Of a DNA stretch of 42,819 nt, positions 35,514 through 42,819 are shown piece after piece. Position 1 is the stretch's first letter. The number at the start of each line of letters is the position of its first letter. The position numbers were made by a program, and so were the translations under genes. The notes beneath the pieces were generated by a model. It had not been told where the DNA came from. It did not search any database and was given only the letters and a program-made list of their open reading frames with translations. The DNA comes from an uncultured Clostridia bacterium (GTDB lineage: Bacteria > Bacillota > Clostridia > CALYAR01), in assembly GCA_944393585.1 (NCBI GenBank), contig CALYAR010000010.1:1-42819 (forward strand), given 5' to 3'.

Positions 35514-36506
35514 CTATACAAAGAAAATAGGATTTGTCCAGGCTTTTCGTCCAGACGCATCAGTCACCTGTGCCCGGATATAGCGCTCTCGCCCATCTAA
35601 TTTCCAAACTGCTTCTGTCAGCTGCGCTGCCAAATCCGAATAGCCAAGTGCGCGGCATGGTTCAGCAATCAGTTCAATTTTCTGGACTGGGGAACACGAT
35701 AGAAATACGGTACCGTCTTTCACTTCAAAGCGGCTGATTTCGGGGCCGGTTGAGGAATAAAACCGTCCTTCGGATAATGCCTGACCGATTGCAGAAACCG
35801 AAAGCTCCGTTGCATAGACCTGAACCCATCCTCGGCAGGATGAAAACCGAGGGCTGCCTTCCAACGCTTTTCCGTCCGGCTTATCCCGATTGTGACAGTC
35901 ATCGGTTGCGATTCCCCAAATTTTTTTGCCCTCCCGAAGCAGCAAATCCCATAAAACGGTTCCCTCGCCAGCATCCATTCCGTCGAGTGCACACTCGCTG
36001 TTGTAAATCTCCATTGCAAAATAGCCGTTTAATGCGGCAAGGTCGGCATAAGTCAAGCGAGACCAGATGGGATGATTTATGGTGACAAGATTTCCGCGGG
36101 ATCGCATGGAATCAATATAGGTTTGAGCAGAAGCGTAGTAATGATCCCATGTGGTTTTAAGCGGGGCCTCTATCCGTTCCCCCTCGCAGAGCGGATGATC
36201 TGCCGCCAGGTTTGGAGCATAAAGCACCTGCATATGGTACGCACGGTAACCGCCGCAGCCGGACATTTCCCCTGGCGCGGTCATATTGCCTTCCATAGAA
36301 GGATAGATAAGGAAGCTGGAATCGTTTAAACTTTTGTGAGCATAAAAGATCCGATGATCGCTCAATGCCAAAAAGGAGTAGCCGTGCCGTTTGTAAACTT
36401 CCTTGAGCTCTTCCGGTGAATAAGTTCCGTCCGACACAGTGGAATGGCTGTGCAGATTTCCTTTGTACCATTTTCCCGAACCGGAAAAAGGATTATAATC
36501 TTTCAT
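35514..36506 (-). CDS. PHP-domain metal-dependent phosphoesterase (CehA/McbA-like)
   Basis: A 330-residue protein with the four PHP metal motifs in order: H19/H21 in LHSHST, D50/H51 in LSDHR, the histidine of TINHPIW (about 149), and the terminal DDCHN (about 200). The last 90 residues form a beta-rich domain. PHP proteins hydrolyse phosphate esters or other esters with two or three metal ions. This arrangement resembles CehA/McbA-type proteins. No signal peptide is seen, so it is probably cytoplasmic. AAGGAGAGG precedes the ATG. It is divergent from the secreted phosphatase operon, and a link to phosphate use is possible but unproven. Confidence 0.85.
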   Translation of the reverse strand: MKDYNPFSGSGKWYKGNLHSHSTVSDGTYSPEELKEVYKRHGYSFLALSDHRIFYAHKSLNDSSFLIYPSMEGNMTAPGEMSGCGGYRAYHMQVLYAPNLAADHPLCEGERIEAPLKTTWDHYYASAQTYIDSMRSRGNLVTINHPIWSRLTYADLAALNGYFAMEIYNSECALDGMDAGEGTVLWDLLLREGKKIWGIATDDCHNRDKPDGKALEGSPRFSSCRGWVQVYATELSVSAIGQALSEGRFYSSTGPEISRFEVKDGTVFLSCSPVQKIELIAEPCRALGYSDLAAQLTEAVWKLDGRERYIRAQVTDASGRKAWTNPIFFV

Positions 36507-36545: not shown

Positions 36546-36573
36546 AGTATAATCTTTTTTTACAAAAAAGCAA
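36546..36573 (-). promoter_or_regulatory. Promoter of the PHP gene
   Basis: On the minus strand, TTGCTT (36568-36573), a 16-bp spacer and TATACT (36546-36551), about 40 bp before the start codon. Confidence 0.65.
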
Positions 36574-36797: not shown

Positions 36798-36836
36798 TTT
36801 ACTTTTCCTTTACAGAGTTTTTACTGTTCCTTTACC
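36798..36836 (+). promoter_or_regulatory. PHO box: four TTTAC repeats at 11-bp spacing (PhoP~P site)
   Basis: TTTACT, TTTACA, TTTACT and TTTACC start at 36798, 36809, 36820 and 36831, so the spacing is exactly 11 bp each time. In Bacillus, phosphorylated PhoP binds TT(A/C/T)ACA-type repeats of this spacing ahead of phosphate-starvation genes. The last repeat serves as the -35 of the promoter below. The genes downstream encode secreted phosphatase-type enzymes, which fits. Confidence 0.75.
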
Positions 36837-36860
36837 AATATTATAAATACATTTTATAAA
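36831..36860 (+). promoter_or_regulatory. Promoter of the surface phosphatase operon
   Basis: TTTACC (36831-36836), an 18-bp spacer and TATAAA (36855-36860), with the PHO box covering the -35 region. A second, consensus TATAAT lies at 36879-36884 with a poor -35, and TATAAA at 36842-36847 is 16 bp from the third repeat. Confidence 0.5.
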
Positions 36861-36925
36861 TTCAAATCAAAAAAATACTATAATTGTCTTGTTGCAGAAA
36901 GATAAATCATAAGAGAGGGAAAAGA

Positions 36926-39900
36926 ATGAAAAGAAAAGCAATATCATTATTATTGACATTTGTCATGATTCTAACCATGCTCCCCTTATCGGCTTATGCA
37001 GAAGATGAGCCGCTGGCGGAGGCAGAAACATTATCGCTGACTCCGGGCGATACGACCAGCGAATTAAATTTAAACTGGTACAGCAGCGATGAGGAGCAAA
37101 ATAATGTTTCAAAAGTAAAATTTGAGTCGGAGAGCGGAGAGATCCTCGAAGCTGACGGAGAAGTGATAGATGCCATTGAAGGCAAAAAAGCGCATAAAGT
37201 TACCATTGAGGGGCTGGAGCCGGGAACAACCTACTCCTATCAGGTTTCCAGCGATGGTTCAACTTGGTCTAAGACTTATTCTTACAGCGTTGCAGACGAA
37301 GGAAGCTTTAAATTTGCCTTTGTCGGGGATCCGCAGCTGAACCACGGAAATCAGGATAATACCAGCAACTGGTTCAGCGATGACAAAACGACAAAGAACG
37401 GATGGGAAACGGTTTTAAACCGGATTGAAGCGGAAGACGTAGATTTGATTGTATCTGCGGGCGACCAGGTGGACTCTGCTTACAGTGCAGACGACCGCGA
37501 AAACTGCGAAGCGGAATACACTGATTTTTTCTCTCCTTCCTTAATGCAGTCGCTGCCGTTTGCCCCTGCGGTAGGAAACCATGACCGCAGTTACAATTTT
37601 ACCTACCATTTCAACCTTCCGAATGAACAGGAAGTAGACGATTCGCTCGCGGCTGCAACAGGGAGCGATGCGGAACAGGCGGCGGCAGAGACAGCGGCAA
37701 ACTATTTTTATTACTTTAACAATACGCTGTTTGTTGTTTTAAACAGTTCTGCTTACCCGCAGAGCGCCGAACAGGCCCAACCTTTTATTGAAGCGTTTGA
37801 AAAGACAATCCAGGCGGCCATTGCGGCGCATCCGGATTACCAATGGCTGATTGTACAGCATCACAAATCGACCGCAAGCGTAGCGCAGCATGTGGCTGAC
37901 CGTGATATTCAATATTATGTTGAAGCAGGGTTTGAAAGACTGATGGATGAGTATCAGGTTGATCTGGTGCTCGCCGGACACGATCATGTGTATGCGCGCA
38001 GCCATATCATGCGCAACGGACAGCGCATGAGCAGTTCGGAAGACAGCTATACCAACCCCAATGGAACCATGTATTTGACATGCAATACTTCCTCGGGTCT
38101 AAAGTATTATAATATTTTCGACGGGAACAAGCTTTTAGTAAAAGACAATACCGAGTACCCCATTCTCGAAGACGGAACAGTGGGCAGTGTGGAATATATG
38201 AAAAATAAATACCCGCTTTCCACCGATGTTGCCGAACAGTTCCGAAAACCCGGTTATACCATTGTTGAAGTAACAGACGAAAGCATTGAAATTCGGACAT
38301 ATAATGTAGACGATCCGGAAGAACCCTATGATACGGTCGAAATCATAAAAACAGGTTTCATCCCCGAAACCCTTACCCTGGCTCCGGGTACGGATACCAC
38401 AGAATTGAACCTCAACTGGTACAGCGGCAGCGGCTCGAATCAGGCTGCAATGGTACAATTTACAAGCGAATCGGGAGAGGTAATCACGGCCGAAGGGACA
38501 GTGGAAGAGGCCACAGAAGGGAAACTGGCGCATAAAGTGACAGTAACCGGTCTCAAACCCGATACGGCATATACCTACCGCGTATCAAACGACGGAGAGA
38601 AATGGAGTGCAGATTATCGCTATGAGACGCCGTCCTCCTCTTCCTTTTCCTTTGCTTTTGTGGGAGACCCGCAGTTAAACCACGGAAAGCAGGATAATGA
38701 CAGTGAACATTTCAGTTCCAATCAATCAACGGCCCAGGGCTGGCAGGATACCATGAAGCAGATTCAGGAGGCTGATGTCGATTTTGTTGCCTCGGCAGGC
38801 GACCAGGTCAATACAGCCGACAGCGAAACCCAATATACGGACTTCTTTGCTCCCGCTTCGCTGAGGAATCTTCCCTTTGCCCCTGTAGTGGGAAATCACG
38901 ACCGCAGCAGCCTTTTTTCGTACCACTTCAATGTCCCCAATGAGCAGGAAGTAGACGATGCGATTGCACTGGCAACCGGAAGTGATGCAGAAACGGCGGC
39001 CGCGGAAACAGCTGGAAATTATTATTACTCCTATAACAACGCTTTGTTTGTTGTTTTAAACGATTCAGCCTATCCGCAGGACACTGAGCAGGCTAAGGCT
39101 TTTATCGACGCTTTTGACAAGACCATTGCCGCGGCAAAACAGGCTTATCCGGATTATCAATGGCTGTTCGTACAGCACCATAAATCGACTGCAAGCGTGG
39201 CGCAACATGTGGCAGACCGGGATATCCAATACTATGTCGAAGCAGGTTTTGAAGCATTGATGGACAAGCATGAGGTCGATTTTGTCATGGCGGGTCATGA
39301 CCACGTTTATGTCCGCAGCTATGCCATGAAAAACGGAGAGCGTGTCAGCAGTGATTCGTCCTCATTGTCCAATCCGGAGGGAACGGTTTATTTTACCGCC
39401 AATACCGCTTCCGGGCTGAAATACTACAATATTTTTGACGCGGAAAACCTGTATGTAAAAGACAATACCGAGTATCCTTATCTTGCAAACGGCTTAACCG
39501 GCAGTGAAGAATATCTCAAAGGCGTATATCCTCTGTCCACCAACGTTGCAGTTCAGGATAAAAAACCGGGCTACACGATTGTGAAGGTTTCCGGCGATCG
39601 GGTAACATTTGAGACCTATTCTTCCGACAGTGCAGAACCGATCGATGAATTTACTGTTACAAAAGGCGGTACGTCTTCCGAAACGGAATACACCATTACG
39701 GTAGAACAGTCAGAAAGCGGGAAAATTTCGCCCGGGACCAGTACAGTTATGGAATATACCTCTAAGAGATTTACCATTACGCCAGCGGAAGGGTACCAAA
39801 TTGCTGATGTACTGGTAGATGGAGAATCTGTGGGCGCAGTAAGCGAGTATATTTTTGAAAATATCAGAGCAAACCATCGAATTCAGGCTGTATTTGAAAA

Positions 39901-40501
39901 AACCAACAGCGGCGGTGAAATTATCCCGGATCCAGATCCGGAATGGGAAAAATTCACTGATATTGACGGCCACTGGGCGAAAGACAGCATCTGCGCCGCA
40001 GTAGAAAACGGACTGTTTGCCGGCACGAGCGAAACCACATTTGGCCCCGACCTTCCAATGACACGCAGCATGTTTGTTGCAGTTTTGGGACGGCTGGCAG
40101 GCGTACAGGCAGACGAAATTACCGCTCAAAACACATTTTCGGATGTCGATGAATCGGCATATTATGCTCCCTATGTAACGTGGGCGGCTCAGAATGGAAT
40201 CGTATACGGCATATCCGAAGAAGAGTTCGCTCCTGATCTGCCGATTACGCGGGAACAAATTGCAGCTATGCTGGTTCGGTATGCGGATAAAATGGGAATT
40301 GAACTGGCAAAAGAGAACGATCCGGTTCATTTTACAGATGAAGACAGGATCAGCGCGTTTGCAGCGGAAGCTGTGTCCGAACTGCAGCAAGCCGGAATTC
40401 TGCATGGCAACGGCGATTCCAGCTTTGCCCCGCTTCGGGAAGCAACCCGTGCAGAGGTAGCGGTTATCATGGAGACGTTTCGGGCGAAAACGGTAGAATA
40501 A
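36926..40501 (+). CDS. SLH-anchored surface protein with two tandem metallophosphoesterase modules
   Basis: A 1191-residue secreted protein. A signal peptide (about 1-27, ending SAYA) is followed by two copies of a module made of a purple-acid-phosphatase-type fibronectin-like domain and a calcineurin-like phosphoesterase domain (about 36-480 and 482-910). Each copy keeps GDPQLNHG (D135, D581), GDQV, GNHD (218-220, 657-659), QHHKST and GHDHVY. GDQVD of copy 1 is GDQVN in copy 2. An InlB-like repeat domain (about 916-992) and three SLH domains (about 1008-1191) follow, which anchor the protein to wall polymer. ATG 36926 follows GAGGGAAAAG. The next gene starts 10 bp downstream. Confidence 0.9.
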   Translation: MKRKAISLLLTFVMILTMLPLSAYAEDEPLAEAETLSLTPGDTTSELNLNWYSSDEEQNNVSKVKFESESGEILEADGEVIDAIEGKKAHKVTIEGLEPGTTYSYQVSSDGSTWSKTYSYSVADEGSFKFAFVGDPQLNHGNQDNTSNWFSDDKTTKNGWETVLNRIEAEDVDLIVSAGDQVDSAYSADDRENCEAEYTDFFSPSLMQSLPFAPAVGNHDRSYNFTYHFNLPNEQEVDDSLAAATGSDAEQAAAETAANYFYYFNNTLFVVLNSSAYPQSAEQAQPFIEAFEKTIQAAIAAHPDYQWLIVQHHKSTASVAQHVADRDIQYYVEAGFERLMDEYQVDLVLAGHDHVYARSHIMRNGQRMSSSEDSYTNPNGTMYLTCNTSSGLKYYNIFDGNKLLVKDNTEYPILEDGTVGSVEYMKNKYPLSTDVAEQFRKPGYTIVEVTDESIEIRTYNVDDPEEPYDTVEIIKTGFIPETLTLAPGTDTTELNLNWYSGSGSNQAAMVQFTSESGEVITAEGTVEEATEGKLAHKVTVTGLKPDTAYTYRVSNDGEKWSADYRYETPSSSSFSFAFVGDPQLNHGKQDNDSEHFSSNQSTAQGWQDTMKQIQEADVDFVASAGDQVNTADSETQYTDFFAPASLRNLPFAPVVGNHDRSSLFSYHFNVPNEQEVDDAIALATGSDAETAAAETAGNYYYSYNNALFVVLNDSAYPQDTEQAKAFIDAFDKTIAAAKQAYPDYQWLFVQHHKSTASVAQHVADRDIQYYVEAGFEALMDKHEVDFVMAGHDHVYVRSYAMKNGERVSSDSSSLSNPEGTVYFTANTASGLKYYNIFDAENLYVKDNTEYPYLANGLTGSEEYLKGVYPLSTNVAVQDKKPGYTIVKVSGDRVTFETYSSDSAEPIDEFTVTKGGTSSETEYTITVEQSESGKISPGTSTVMEYTSKRFTITPAEGYQIADVLVDGESVGAVSEYIFENIRANHRIQAVFEKTNSGGEIIPDPDPEWEKFTDIDGHWAKDSICAAVENGLFAGTSETTFGPDLPMTRSMFVAVLGRLAGVQADEITAQNTFSDVDESAYYAPYVTWAAQNGIVYGISEEEFAPDLPITREQIAAMLVRYADKMGIELAKENDPVHFTDEDRISAFAAEAVSELQQAGILHGNGDSSFAPLREATRAEVAVIMETFRAKTVE

Positions 40502-40511
40502 GGAGAAAGCT

Positions 40512-42819
40512 ATGAAAAGAAACTTAAAACGCATTATTTCAATAATCCTTGTGGGGATTCTTTCGATTGGTGTGCTTCCGCAAACTGGTACGCAGGCGGC
40601 AGAACAGACCCCGGGCAATTATGTGATTCAGCTCGTCATTGACGGTTTATCCAATGAATTGTTTGACGAACTTAAGGCCGGCGGAGCGCAGACCCCTAAT
40701 ATTGACTGGCTGATGGAACAGGGGACCCGTGTGACGGATGTCAATACCGTAACGCCGGCTCAGGGCGCTTCTCTGGCGGCGGCCATGACAGGGGCCAGCT
40801 CCGGTGCAAACAGCTTTCCATTCAGCTATTATCACCGGGATAAAGGAAAACTGGAAACTGCAACTGGAATGTACTTTATGAATGCACAGACCATCTTTAA
40901 AAAGATTCGGAAAGAAGATGAAAACATTCATATGCTTGCCGCGGGATGGAACCGTCAGACACAGAGCATTAAGAGCAACGACGGTGTGAATCCTACAGAT
41001 GAAGAGCACAAGCTGATTGAGTATGAAAAGAATGACAAATTGATTCCCTTTACGGATATTGCCGACGATATCATCGAGGCGATCCAGAAGGAGACAACCC
41101 CGAGATATATGACTGGTTATTCCAATGATCTGAAAATTTCACTTTGGAAGTCGGAATTTACAGAGGCAAAACGGGAAACGGCAGTCGAGACCTTAAACGC
41201 AATTGACGTCAAAATCGGAGAAATTATAAAAGCGGCGGAAGAAAAAGGAATTTTGGACAATACAACCTTTCTGGTAAGCTCGCTTCTGACCCTTTCGGCG
41301 AGCGAGAAAAAACTTCCTGTTGCTGATCTTGCTACCTCGCTTACTTACGATCTGAATTTGAAAACACAGGTCGCTGTATCCAATCTGATTATTGACCCGA
41401 ATACCAAAATTGTCCTGGTAGGCACGATTCAGCCCTTTGTTCAGATGTATTTTATTACAGACAATGAACGGCCGGAGGATAACATAACTGAAGAAGAAAA
41501 AGAACTGGTTTTAGAGTATTTACAGGATAAAGACAACGCATGGGGAAGCAAAATACATTCTGTGGTATCAACGGAAGAATATGGGTGGACGGATGACGGA
41601 TATAAGTTCGGAGATTACATCATTATTCCGGAAAACGGAATGTCCTTTTCCAGCAGCGCCGCGAATCTAATGATGCCGGGCAACCAGCTGGAACAAACCG
41701 TGTTCTGCGTAGCGTCCGGCGCAGAGGTGCCGCAGGGATCAACCGTTGTTGATACAGAGCAGGAACACAGTATTATGGATTTTGCCCCGACGATCTGCTC
41801 CTGGCTTGGAGTAGCGGCGCCGGAACAGGCGGAAGGAAGCGCATGGGAGTTTTCCACAGATGCGGCTTCGGCTCCCGTCATCGCGCTGGATCAGCCGGAC
41901 AGCCATTATCAGCTGACGTACGAGTCATTGCTCCGTTTACAGGGCAGTGTCTCTCAGGGAACGGAAACCTTAACGGTGAACGGTGAAACGGTTGAATTAA
42001 ATGATTCTGCTTTTGAACACAGTATTTCCCTTCAGGAAGGAATTAATATAATTGATCTGGCGGCCGCGAACGCCGCAGGGAATCAGACGCATAAATACTT
42101 GACGGTTGATTACCGTCCGCTGCCGGAAAAAGAAGCGCTCAACCGCGTTGTATATATCAATTTTGACGGTTTTGCCGACTATTATTTTGACGAGGCGGAA
42201 AAACAGGGATTGGTTCCGGTTTTGAGCAAGATTAAAAATGAGGATGGTATTTATTTTGATAATGCCTACACCAACATTCCAAGTATTACCAATCCAATGC
42301 AAAATGCAATTATCGCTGGCGCGCCGCCGATTATTACCGATAATTACCGAAAATACTTTAACAAGGAACAGAATGTTGTACTCACACAGGAGGACGGCAC
42401 ACGGGCAGAAAACCTGGCCGAAGCGGCTGTCCGCCAGGGCCTGAGCGTCATTTCCATTAACCAGTTTATTACCGAAGAGCGCGGAACGGCGGCAAATGAA
42501 CCCTACAGCGCTTATGTAACGAGTTCCTACGGCGCAAGCGGATATTCCGATGGAGCAGCCCGCTTTGATGAATTGATTAAACTGGTGGAAGAAGGAAAAG
42601 CGGGTAAACTGACCTTTGAAGAGTTTCCGCAGTTTATCATGCTCTATGCAGACGACCTTGACGGGCTGGGGCACAACCATAACGCACATACTTATGGTAC
42701 GCCGCGCGTTTACACCGAAGAAGAGCGGATGGATCTGGTGCTGCGCAGGCTGCAGAAACTGGATGAAAAAATCGGTGAAATGATCGAAGCATTTGAAAAT
42801 GCAGGCCTGATGGAAACGA
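40512..42819 (+). CDS. Secreted tandem alkaline-phosphatase-superfamily protein (incomplete at window end)
   Basis: The frame is open from ATG 40512 (AAGGAG upstream) to the edge, giving 769 codons. A signal peptide covers about 1-30. Domain 1 (about 35-460) starts LVIDGLSNE (D44) with a T81 nucleophile-like site in NTVTPAQG, but the usual SDHG is SSL (256-258) and the D..GH motif is ND..SLW (around 206), so metal ligands appear lost. Domain 2 begins YINFDGF (D552), with T593 in PSITNPM and the metal motif DDLDGLGHNHNAH, which looks competent. A linker domain with repeated beta strands lies between. It is co-transcribed with the SLH protein and probably uses phosphodiesters or nucleotides outside the cell. 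Confidence 0.88.
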   Translation, partial: MKRNLKRIISIILVGILSIGVLPQTGTQAAEQTPGNYVIQLVIDGLSNELFDELKAGGAQTPNIDWLMEQGTRVTDVNTVTPAQGASLAAAMTGASSGANSFPFSYYHRDKGKLETATGMYFMNAQTIFKKIRKEDENIHMLAAGWNRQTQSIKSNDGVNPTDEEHKLIEYEKNDKLIPFTDIADDIIEAIQKETTPRYMTGYSNDLKISLWKSEFTEAKRETAVETLNAIDVKIGEIIKAAEEKGILDNTTFLVSSLLTLSASEKKLPVADLATSLTYDLNLKTQVAVSNLIIDPNTKIVLVGTIQPFVQMYFITDNERPEDNITEEEKELVLEYLQDKDNAWGSKIHSVVSTEEYGWTDDGYKFGDYIIIPENGMSFSSSAANLMMPGNQLEQTVFCVASGAEVPQGSTVVDTEQEHSIMDFAPTICSWLGVAAPEQAEGSAWEFSTDAASAPVIALDQPDSHYQLTYESLLRLQGSVSQGTETLTVNGETVELNDSAFEHSISLQEGINIIDLAAANAAGNQTHKYLTVDYRPLPEKEALNRVVYINFDGFADYYFDEAEKQGLVPVLSKIKNEDGIYFDNAYTNIPSITNPMQNAIIAGAPPIITDNYRKYFNKEQNVVLTQEDGTRAENLAEAAVRQGLSVISINQFITEERGTAANEPYSAYVTSSYGASGYSDGAARFDELIKLVEEGKAGKLTFEEFPQFIMLYADDLDGLGHNHNAHTYGTPRVYTEEERMDLVLRRLQKLDEKIGEMIEAFENAGLMET

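Follow-up and report, generated by a model that had tools for sequence, protein, structure and literature searches.

Results

The window analyzed here, the 42,819 nucleotides of contig C10 from an uncultured Clostridia bacterium, ends in two large plus-strand genes, identified as open reading frames and characterized by domain searches. Gene 1 (36926..40501, start ATG at 36926) encodes a 1191-aa protein in which a signal peptide, judged by eye, is followed by two tandem Pur_ac_phosph_N plus Metallophos units and then three C-terminal SLH domains. The two units are 63% identical to each other, and both contain all five ligand-motif regions: GDPQ (134 in copy 1, 580 in copy 2), AGDQ (178 and 624), GNHD (217 and 656), QHH (311 and 750), and GHDH (351 and 790). 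The two domains and the GD, GD, GNH, H, and GHxH motifs are those of purple-acid-type enzymes, and the predicted product is a purple-acid-phosphatase-like surface phosphatase, anchored to the wall via its SLH domains. A search of the PDB for sequence-level relatives of the phosphatase unit returned none.

Gene 2 (40512..42818, plus strand) is a predicted secreted protein of the alkaline phosphatase superfamily, 769 aa long up to the contig end. It has a Phosphodiest domain (PF01663) at residues 546-767 and a weak N-terminal sulfatase/phosphodiesterase-like unit, with a Glucodextran_B domain between them. Because gene 2 begins 10 bp after the stop codon of gene 1, the two genes are likely co-transcribed. 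The preliminary description had proposed a two-gene operon; the close spacing agrees with this, but two is a minimum, as the contig ends inside gene 2. Among 391 genomes, gene 2 has one relative, a distant one, making it unusable for comparative promoter work.

Upstream of gene 1 is a 419-bp intergenic region. The divergent neighbor on its other side (35514-36506, minus strand) encodes a CehA/McbA-type PHP metallohydrolase, possibly a further phosphoesterase; we found no box of its own before this gene (best scores 10/15 and 13/20, p about 0.9).

Within the intergenic region, TTTAC occurs on the coding strand at 36798, 36809, 36820, and 36831, in steps of exactly 11 bp, as first described. The array (36798..36835, plus strand) ends 90 bp before the gene 1 ATG. 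Scored as four TTHAC copies, it reaches 20/20 at a spacing of 11 and at most 15/20 at spacings of 7-10 and 12-15, so that the scan of the intergenic region peaks at 11 only. When the region was resampled 5000 times at order 1, no resample attained a score of 20. We extended the pattern search to the whole genome (2,819,955 bases, or 2.82 Mb, in 266 contigs), where the array was the single exact match to TTHACN6TTHACN6TTHACN6TTHAC. From the pentamer frequency, 0.0003 matches of this kind are expected per genome, and five genome equivalents simulated with a third-order Markov model contained none, either exact or with one mismatch. With up to two mismatches, the simulations gave 0.4 matches per genome and the real genome has six distinct places.

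To place the array relative to a promoter, we listed the possible -10 elements downstream. There are three, of which the preliminary description had named the second: after the last repeat comes TATAAA at 6 bp (36842..36847), TATAAA at 19 bp (36855..36860), and a perfect TATAAT at 43 bp (36879..36884), all on the plus strand and followed by a ribosome-binding-site-like AGAGAGGG at approximately 36912..36919, before the gene 1 ATG. The array thus lies upstream of the promoter and on the coding strand with any of them. Our preferred candidate is the second, which places the last repeat at the -35 position. The distance from the last TTTAC to this TATAAA had been given as 18 bp; 19 bases actually separate them, and the figure of 18 is correct as a -35/-10 spacer, with the last copy taken as a -35 hexamer, TTTACC.

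The preliminary description had made its reading depend on the presence of phoPR. Both genes are present: contig C146 carries pstS-pstC-pstA-pstB-phoP-phoR-phoU, all in one direction. In profile searches, phoU scored above its curated cut-off. The best NCBIfam match of PhoP was PhoB, and those of PhoR were PnpS and PhoR, all below the equivalog cut-offs, with the pst operon as the supporting context. The genome encodes a predicted phosphate-responsive two-component system.

It had also been suggested that 11-bp-spaced repeats be sought before phosphate genes, and the genome scan found them at three such loci. The box before pstS has two mismatches (TTTAC, TTTAC, AACAC, TTTAC) and ends about 64 bp upstream of the gene. 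The box before a PiT phosphate permease gene, which is followed by a gene for a DUF47 PhoU-like protein, has one mismatch (TTTAT, TTTAC, TTTAC, TTTAC) and ends about 62 bp upstream. A five-copy degenerate array precedes a phnD-like gene for a PhnD-type phosphonate/phosphite-binding protein, and the three boxes all lie 62-70 bp upstream of their genes. The array at 36798 is the best of the top genome-wide matches, which also include those at pit-DUF47 and pstSCAB-phoPR-phoU.

Further matches were recorded. On contig C163 (708-745, minus strand), three TTTAC copies and one TTGCC precede a 66-aa membrane ORF and an ORF of roughly 50 aa at the contig end, with TATGAT exactly 10 bp downstream; these small ORFs are a candidate Pho-controlled operon. 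On C85 (711-748, minus strand), a PAP2-family phosphatase gene has a weak box with three mismatches a short distance upstream, which may be due to chance. A two-mismatch match on C131, located downstream of a converging operon, was attributed to chance.

The promoters behind these boxes differ in geometry. The last repeat is followed by TATRAT after exactly 10 bp at pstS, phnD, and C163. At pit, the distance to TATGAT is 19 bp, equal to that of the TATAAA at 36855, and in pstS examples from across the class the last repeat stands 21 bp (10 + 11) before TATAAT. Two repeats plus TATRAT at 10 bp, allowing up to two mismatches, gave 42 matches against 67 for the backwards control, and hence no enrichment.

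To determine if the element recurs in related organisms, we searched the class in two ways. In the pattern-first search, exact four-repeat boxes occurred in 29 of 391 same-class genomes, compared to 6 for the pattern read backwards, with tandem arrays making up part of both counts. Seven of 28 other boxed loci lead into pst or phosphatase genes. Exact boxes lie upstream of PstS-like genes (L148, L149, and L150), a Pst-type permease gene (L142), a PstB-like gene followed by a PhoU-like gene (L143), and genes for Pur_ac_phosph_N plus Metallophos enzymes (L144 and L146). Thus, a search that began from the pattern independently arrived at a gene-1-type surface phosphatase in another family. At a further locus (L145, 1501-1538), an exact four-copy TTWAC box lies 59 bp before a gene for an unassigned 288-aa membrane protein, which is followed by a gene for an ABC ATPase resembling an ECF-type importer.

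In the protein-first scan, the regions upstream of 24 gene 1 homologues from other families were scored, several of which share one genus and are not all independent; eight reached at least 16/20 at a spacing of 11. In the same regions, spacings of 8-10 and 12-14 gave 0-2 and the backwards control gave 2. The opposite strand gave 6 at a spacing of 11 with the same threshold, probably due to partly palindromic TTTACATGAA repeats. Homologous phosphatases without a recognizable box make up about half of the total or more.

One array in the genome has a different character. On C173 (2907-2955), TTTAC, TTCAA, TTCAC, and TTCAC follow one another at 11 bp, a comparable box with one mismatch, ahead of a gene for an HtrA-like protease containing Trypsin_2 and PDZ domains. 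As this is no obvious phosphate gene, the 11-bp pattern alone is no proof of PhoP. Other TTCAC arrays in the class-wide search also precede non-phosphate genes, such as a DUF2680 gene in L132. As the C173 array shows, a site cannot be assigned from its 11-bp spacing alone, and the third base may be relevant. This TTCAC-rich array resembles a different, envelope-stress-type site, and the TTCAC arrays together suggest that stress operators and PHO boxes are told apart by the third base.

Discussion

We consider it highly probable that 36798-36835 is a PHO box through which PhoP would switch on a surface phosphate-scavenging operon when phosphate is scarce. The site itself is almost certainly real, as the same mark also precedes phosphate transporters. 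Its reading as a PHO box is well supported by the boxes at the genome's own phosphate genes, the class-wide enrichment, and the repeats before homologous phosphatases. The original interpretation of the locus is thus supported as to the box: two of the three outcomes that were to refute it, a lack of phoPR and a lack of such repeats at phosphate genes, did not occur. Induction of the operon by phosphate starvation is what this reading predicts. Counting against it are the geometry (19 bp here, 10 bp at pstS and phnD), the three competing -10 candidates after the array, the homologous phosphatases that lack a box, the C173 box ahead of the htrA-like gene, and the scores of PhoP and PhoR below the equivalog cut-offs.

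Under phosphate limitation, PhoR, encoded inside pstSCAB-phoPR-phoU, would phosphorylate PhoP, a predicted OmpR/PhoB-family response regulator that would find four half-sites in the array. PhoB-type effector domains are established to bind 11-nt direct repeats in tandem, head to tail (PMC4415409). PhoP~P may likewise bind head-to-tail over the four repeats, whose period of about one helical turn would align the half-sites along a single face of the helix, and recruit sigma-A RNA polymerase to the downstream promoter, most likely at the -10 TATAAA at 36855. The cell would then make both enzymes, the double purple-acid-type phosphatase anchored to its wall and the secreted phosphodiesterase; these would free phosphate from organic esters for import via Pst, Pit, and the PhnD-type transporter, whose genes appear to be under the same kind of box. 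From sequence and precedent we infer that PhoP binds and activates here, where transcription starts, and which substrates the enzymes have; that PhoP~P acts on this site as an activator is taken from the 11-nt repeat binding of PhoB-type regulators and from the PnpR box described below.

The array is an ordinary kind of control for this sort of regulator. In Bacillus subtilis, the PHO box consists of TT(A/T/C)ACA repeats, the core binding site of Liu and Hulett. Both systems have four TTHAC direct repeats at 11 bp on the coding strand just before the promoter, and in both phoPR is present and the targets take in pst and secreted phosphatases or phosphodiesterases. They differ in that phoPR here lies within the pst operon and the box is 19 bp from the -10. 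The putative enzymes follow the same logic of phosphate-controlled secreted phosphomonoesterases and diesterases as Bacillus PhoD, PhoA/PhoB, and GlpQ, but here the pair is an SLH-anchored tandem purple-acid-type phosphatase and a PF01663 phosphodiesterase. In S. pneumoniae, excerpted text of PMC4913102 assigns PnpR a Pho box, TTTACACAATCTTTACA, before pst1. This box shares with ours the TTTAC word, the 11-bp step, and a phosphate gene downstream, and PnpS is a best match of the kinase found here. As described in that text, however, it has two copies rather than four, and the excerpt does not mention a surface phosphatase operon.

Among other explanations, the one that fares best keeps PhoP as the owner of the site but has it act as a repressor or backup activator, with sigma-A reading the promoter unaided and PhoP~P modulating it. 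In its favor, the 18-19 bp from the last repeat to TATAAA match the usual -35/-10 spacing; pit has the same arrangement, pstS and phnD the shorter one of 10 bp. Bacillus PhoP can also repress, according to work on tagAB/tagDEF cited in PMC6232261. We nonetheless regard this as improbable: genes for secreted phosphatases are typically activated in the Pho response (PMC4415409), and since class pstS boxes lie 21 bp before TATAAT, a longer distance is also compatible with expected induction.

It is more doubtful still that another OmpR-family regulator, WalR or a CssR-like envelope-stress regulator, owns the box and that the operon consists of cell-envelope genes. The products are predicted to be wall-anchored, and a similar, TTCAC-rich array stands ahead of the htrA-like protease gene in the same genome. 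The WalR box, TGTWAH-N5-TGTWAH, is likewise an 11-bp direct repeat for an OmpR-family regulator, and its consensus on the opposite strand, DTWACA-N5-DTWACA, is similar to TTTACA repeated every 11 bp (PMC9210968). However, the minus-strand copies of our array read AGTAAA, TGTAAA, AGTAAA, and GGTAAA, of which one fits TGTWAH, and an adjacent TGTWAH-N5-TGTWAH pair is absent from the array on either strand. Other boxes of the genome precede pst, pit, and phnD. For CssR-like regulators, the repeat consensus is TTTTCACA, with C at the third position (TTCAC); all four copies here are TTTAC, unlike the TTCAC arrays. Finally, although TTTAC is frequent as a single word in this A+T-rich intergenic region, with further copies at 36559, 36588, and 36621, a chance repeat is hardly credible given the expected and simulated frequencies, and is excluded by the recurrence of the array before phosphate genes and homologous phosphatases.

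With the PHO-box reading, two large, otherwise unassigned surface enzymes would gain a physiological role in phosphate scavenging, and a lineage without close relatives in the compared genome set gains a usable PHO-box model. At the 19-bp spacing, the last repeat takes the place of the -35 hexamer, and the promoter may be partly independent of PhoP. Possibly, although we rate this somewhat below an even chance, PhoP-controlled large wall- or surface-bound purple-acid-type phosphatases form a conserved, undescribed arm of the Pho response in many families of the class. This arm would have two promoter geometries that behave differently, one in which 10 or 21 bp separate the last repeat from the -10 and one in which the distance is 19 bp and the repeat is at the -35 position. 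Given the comparative signal, the box could be used to predict the true starvation enzymes among the many paralogous metallophosphatases.
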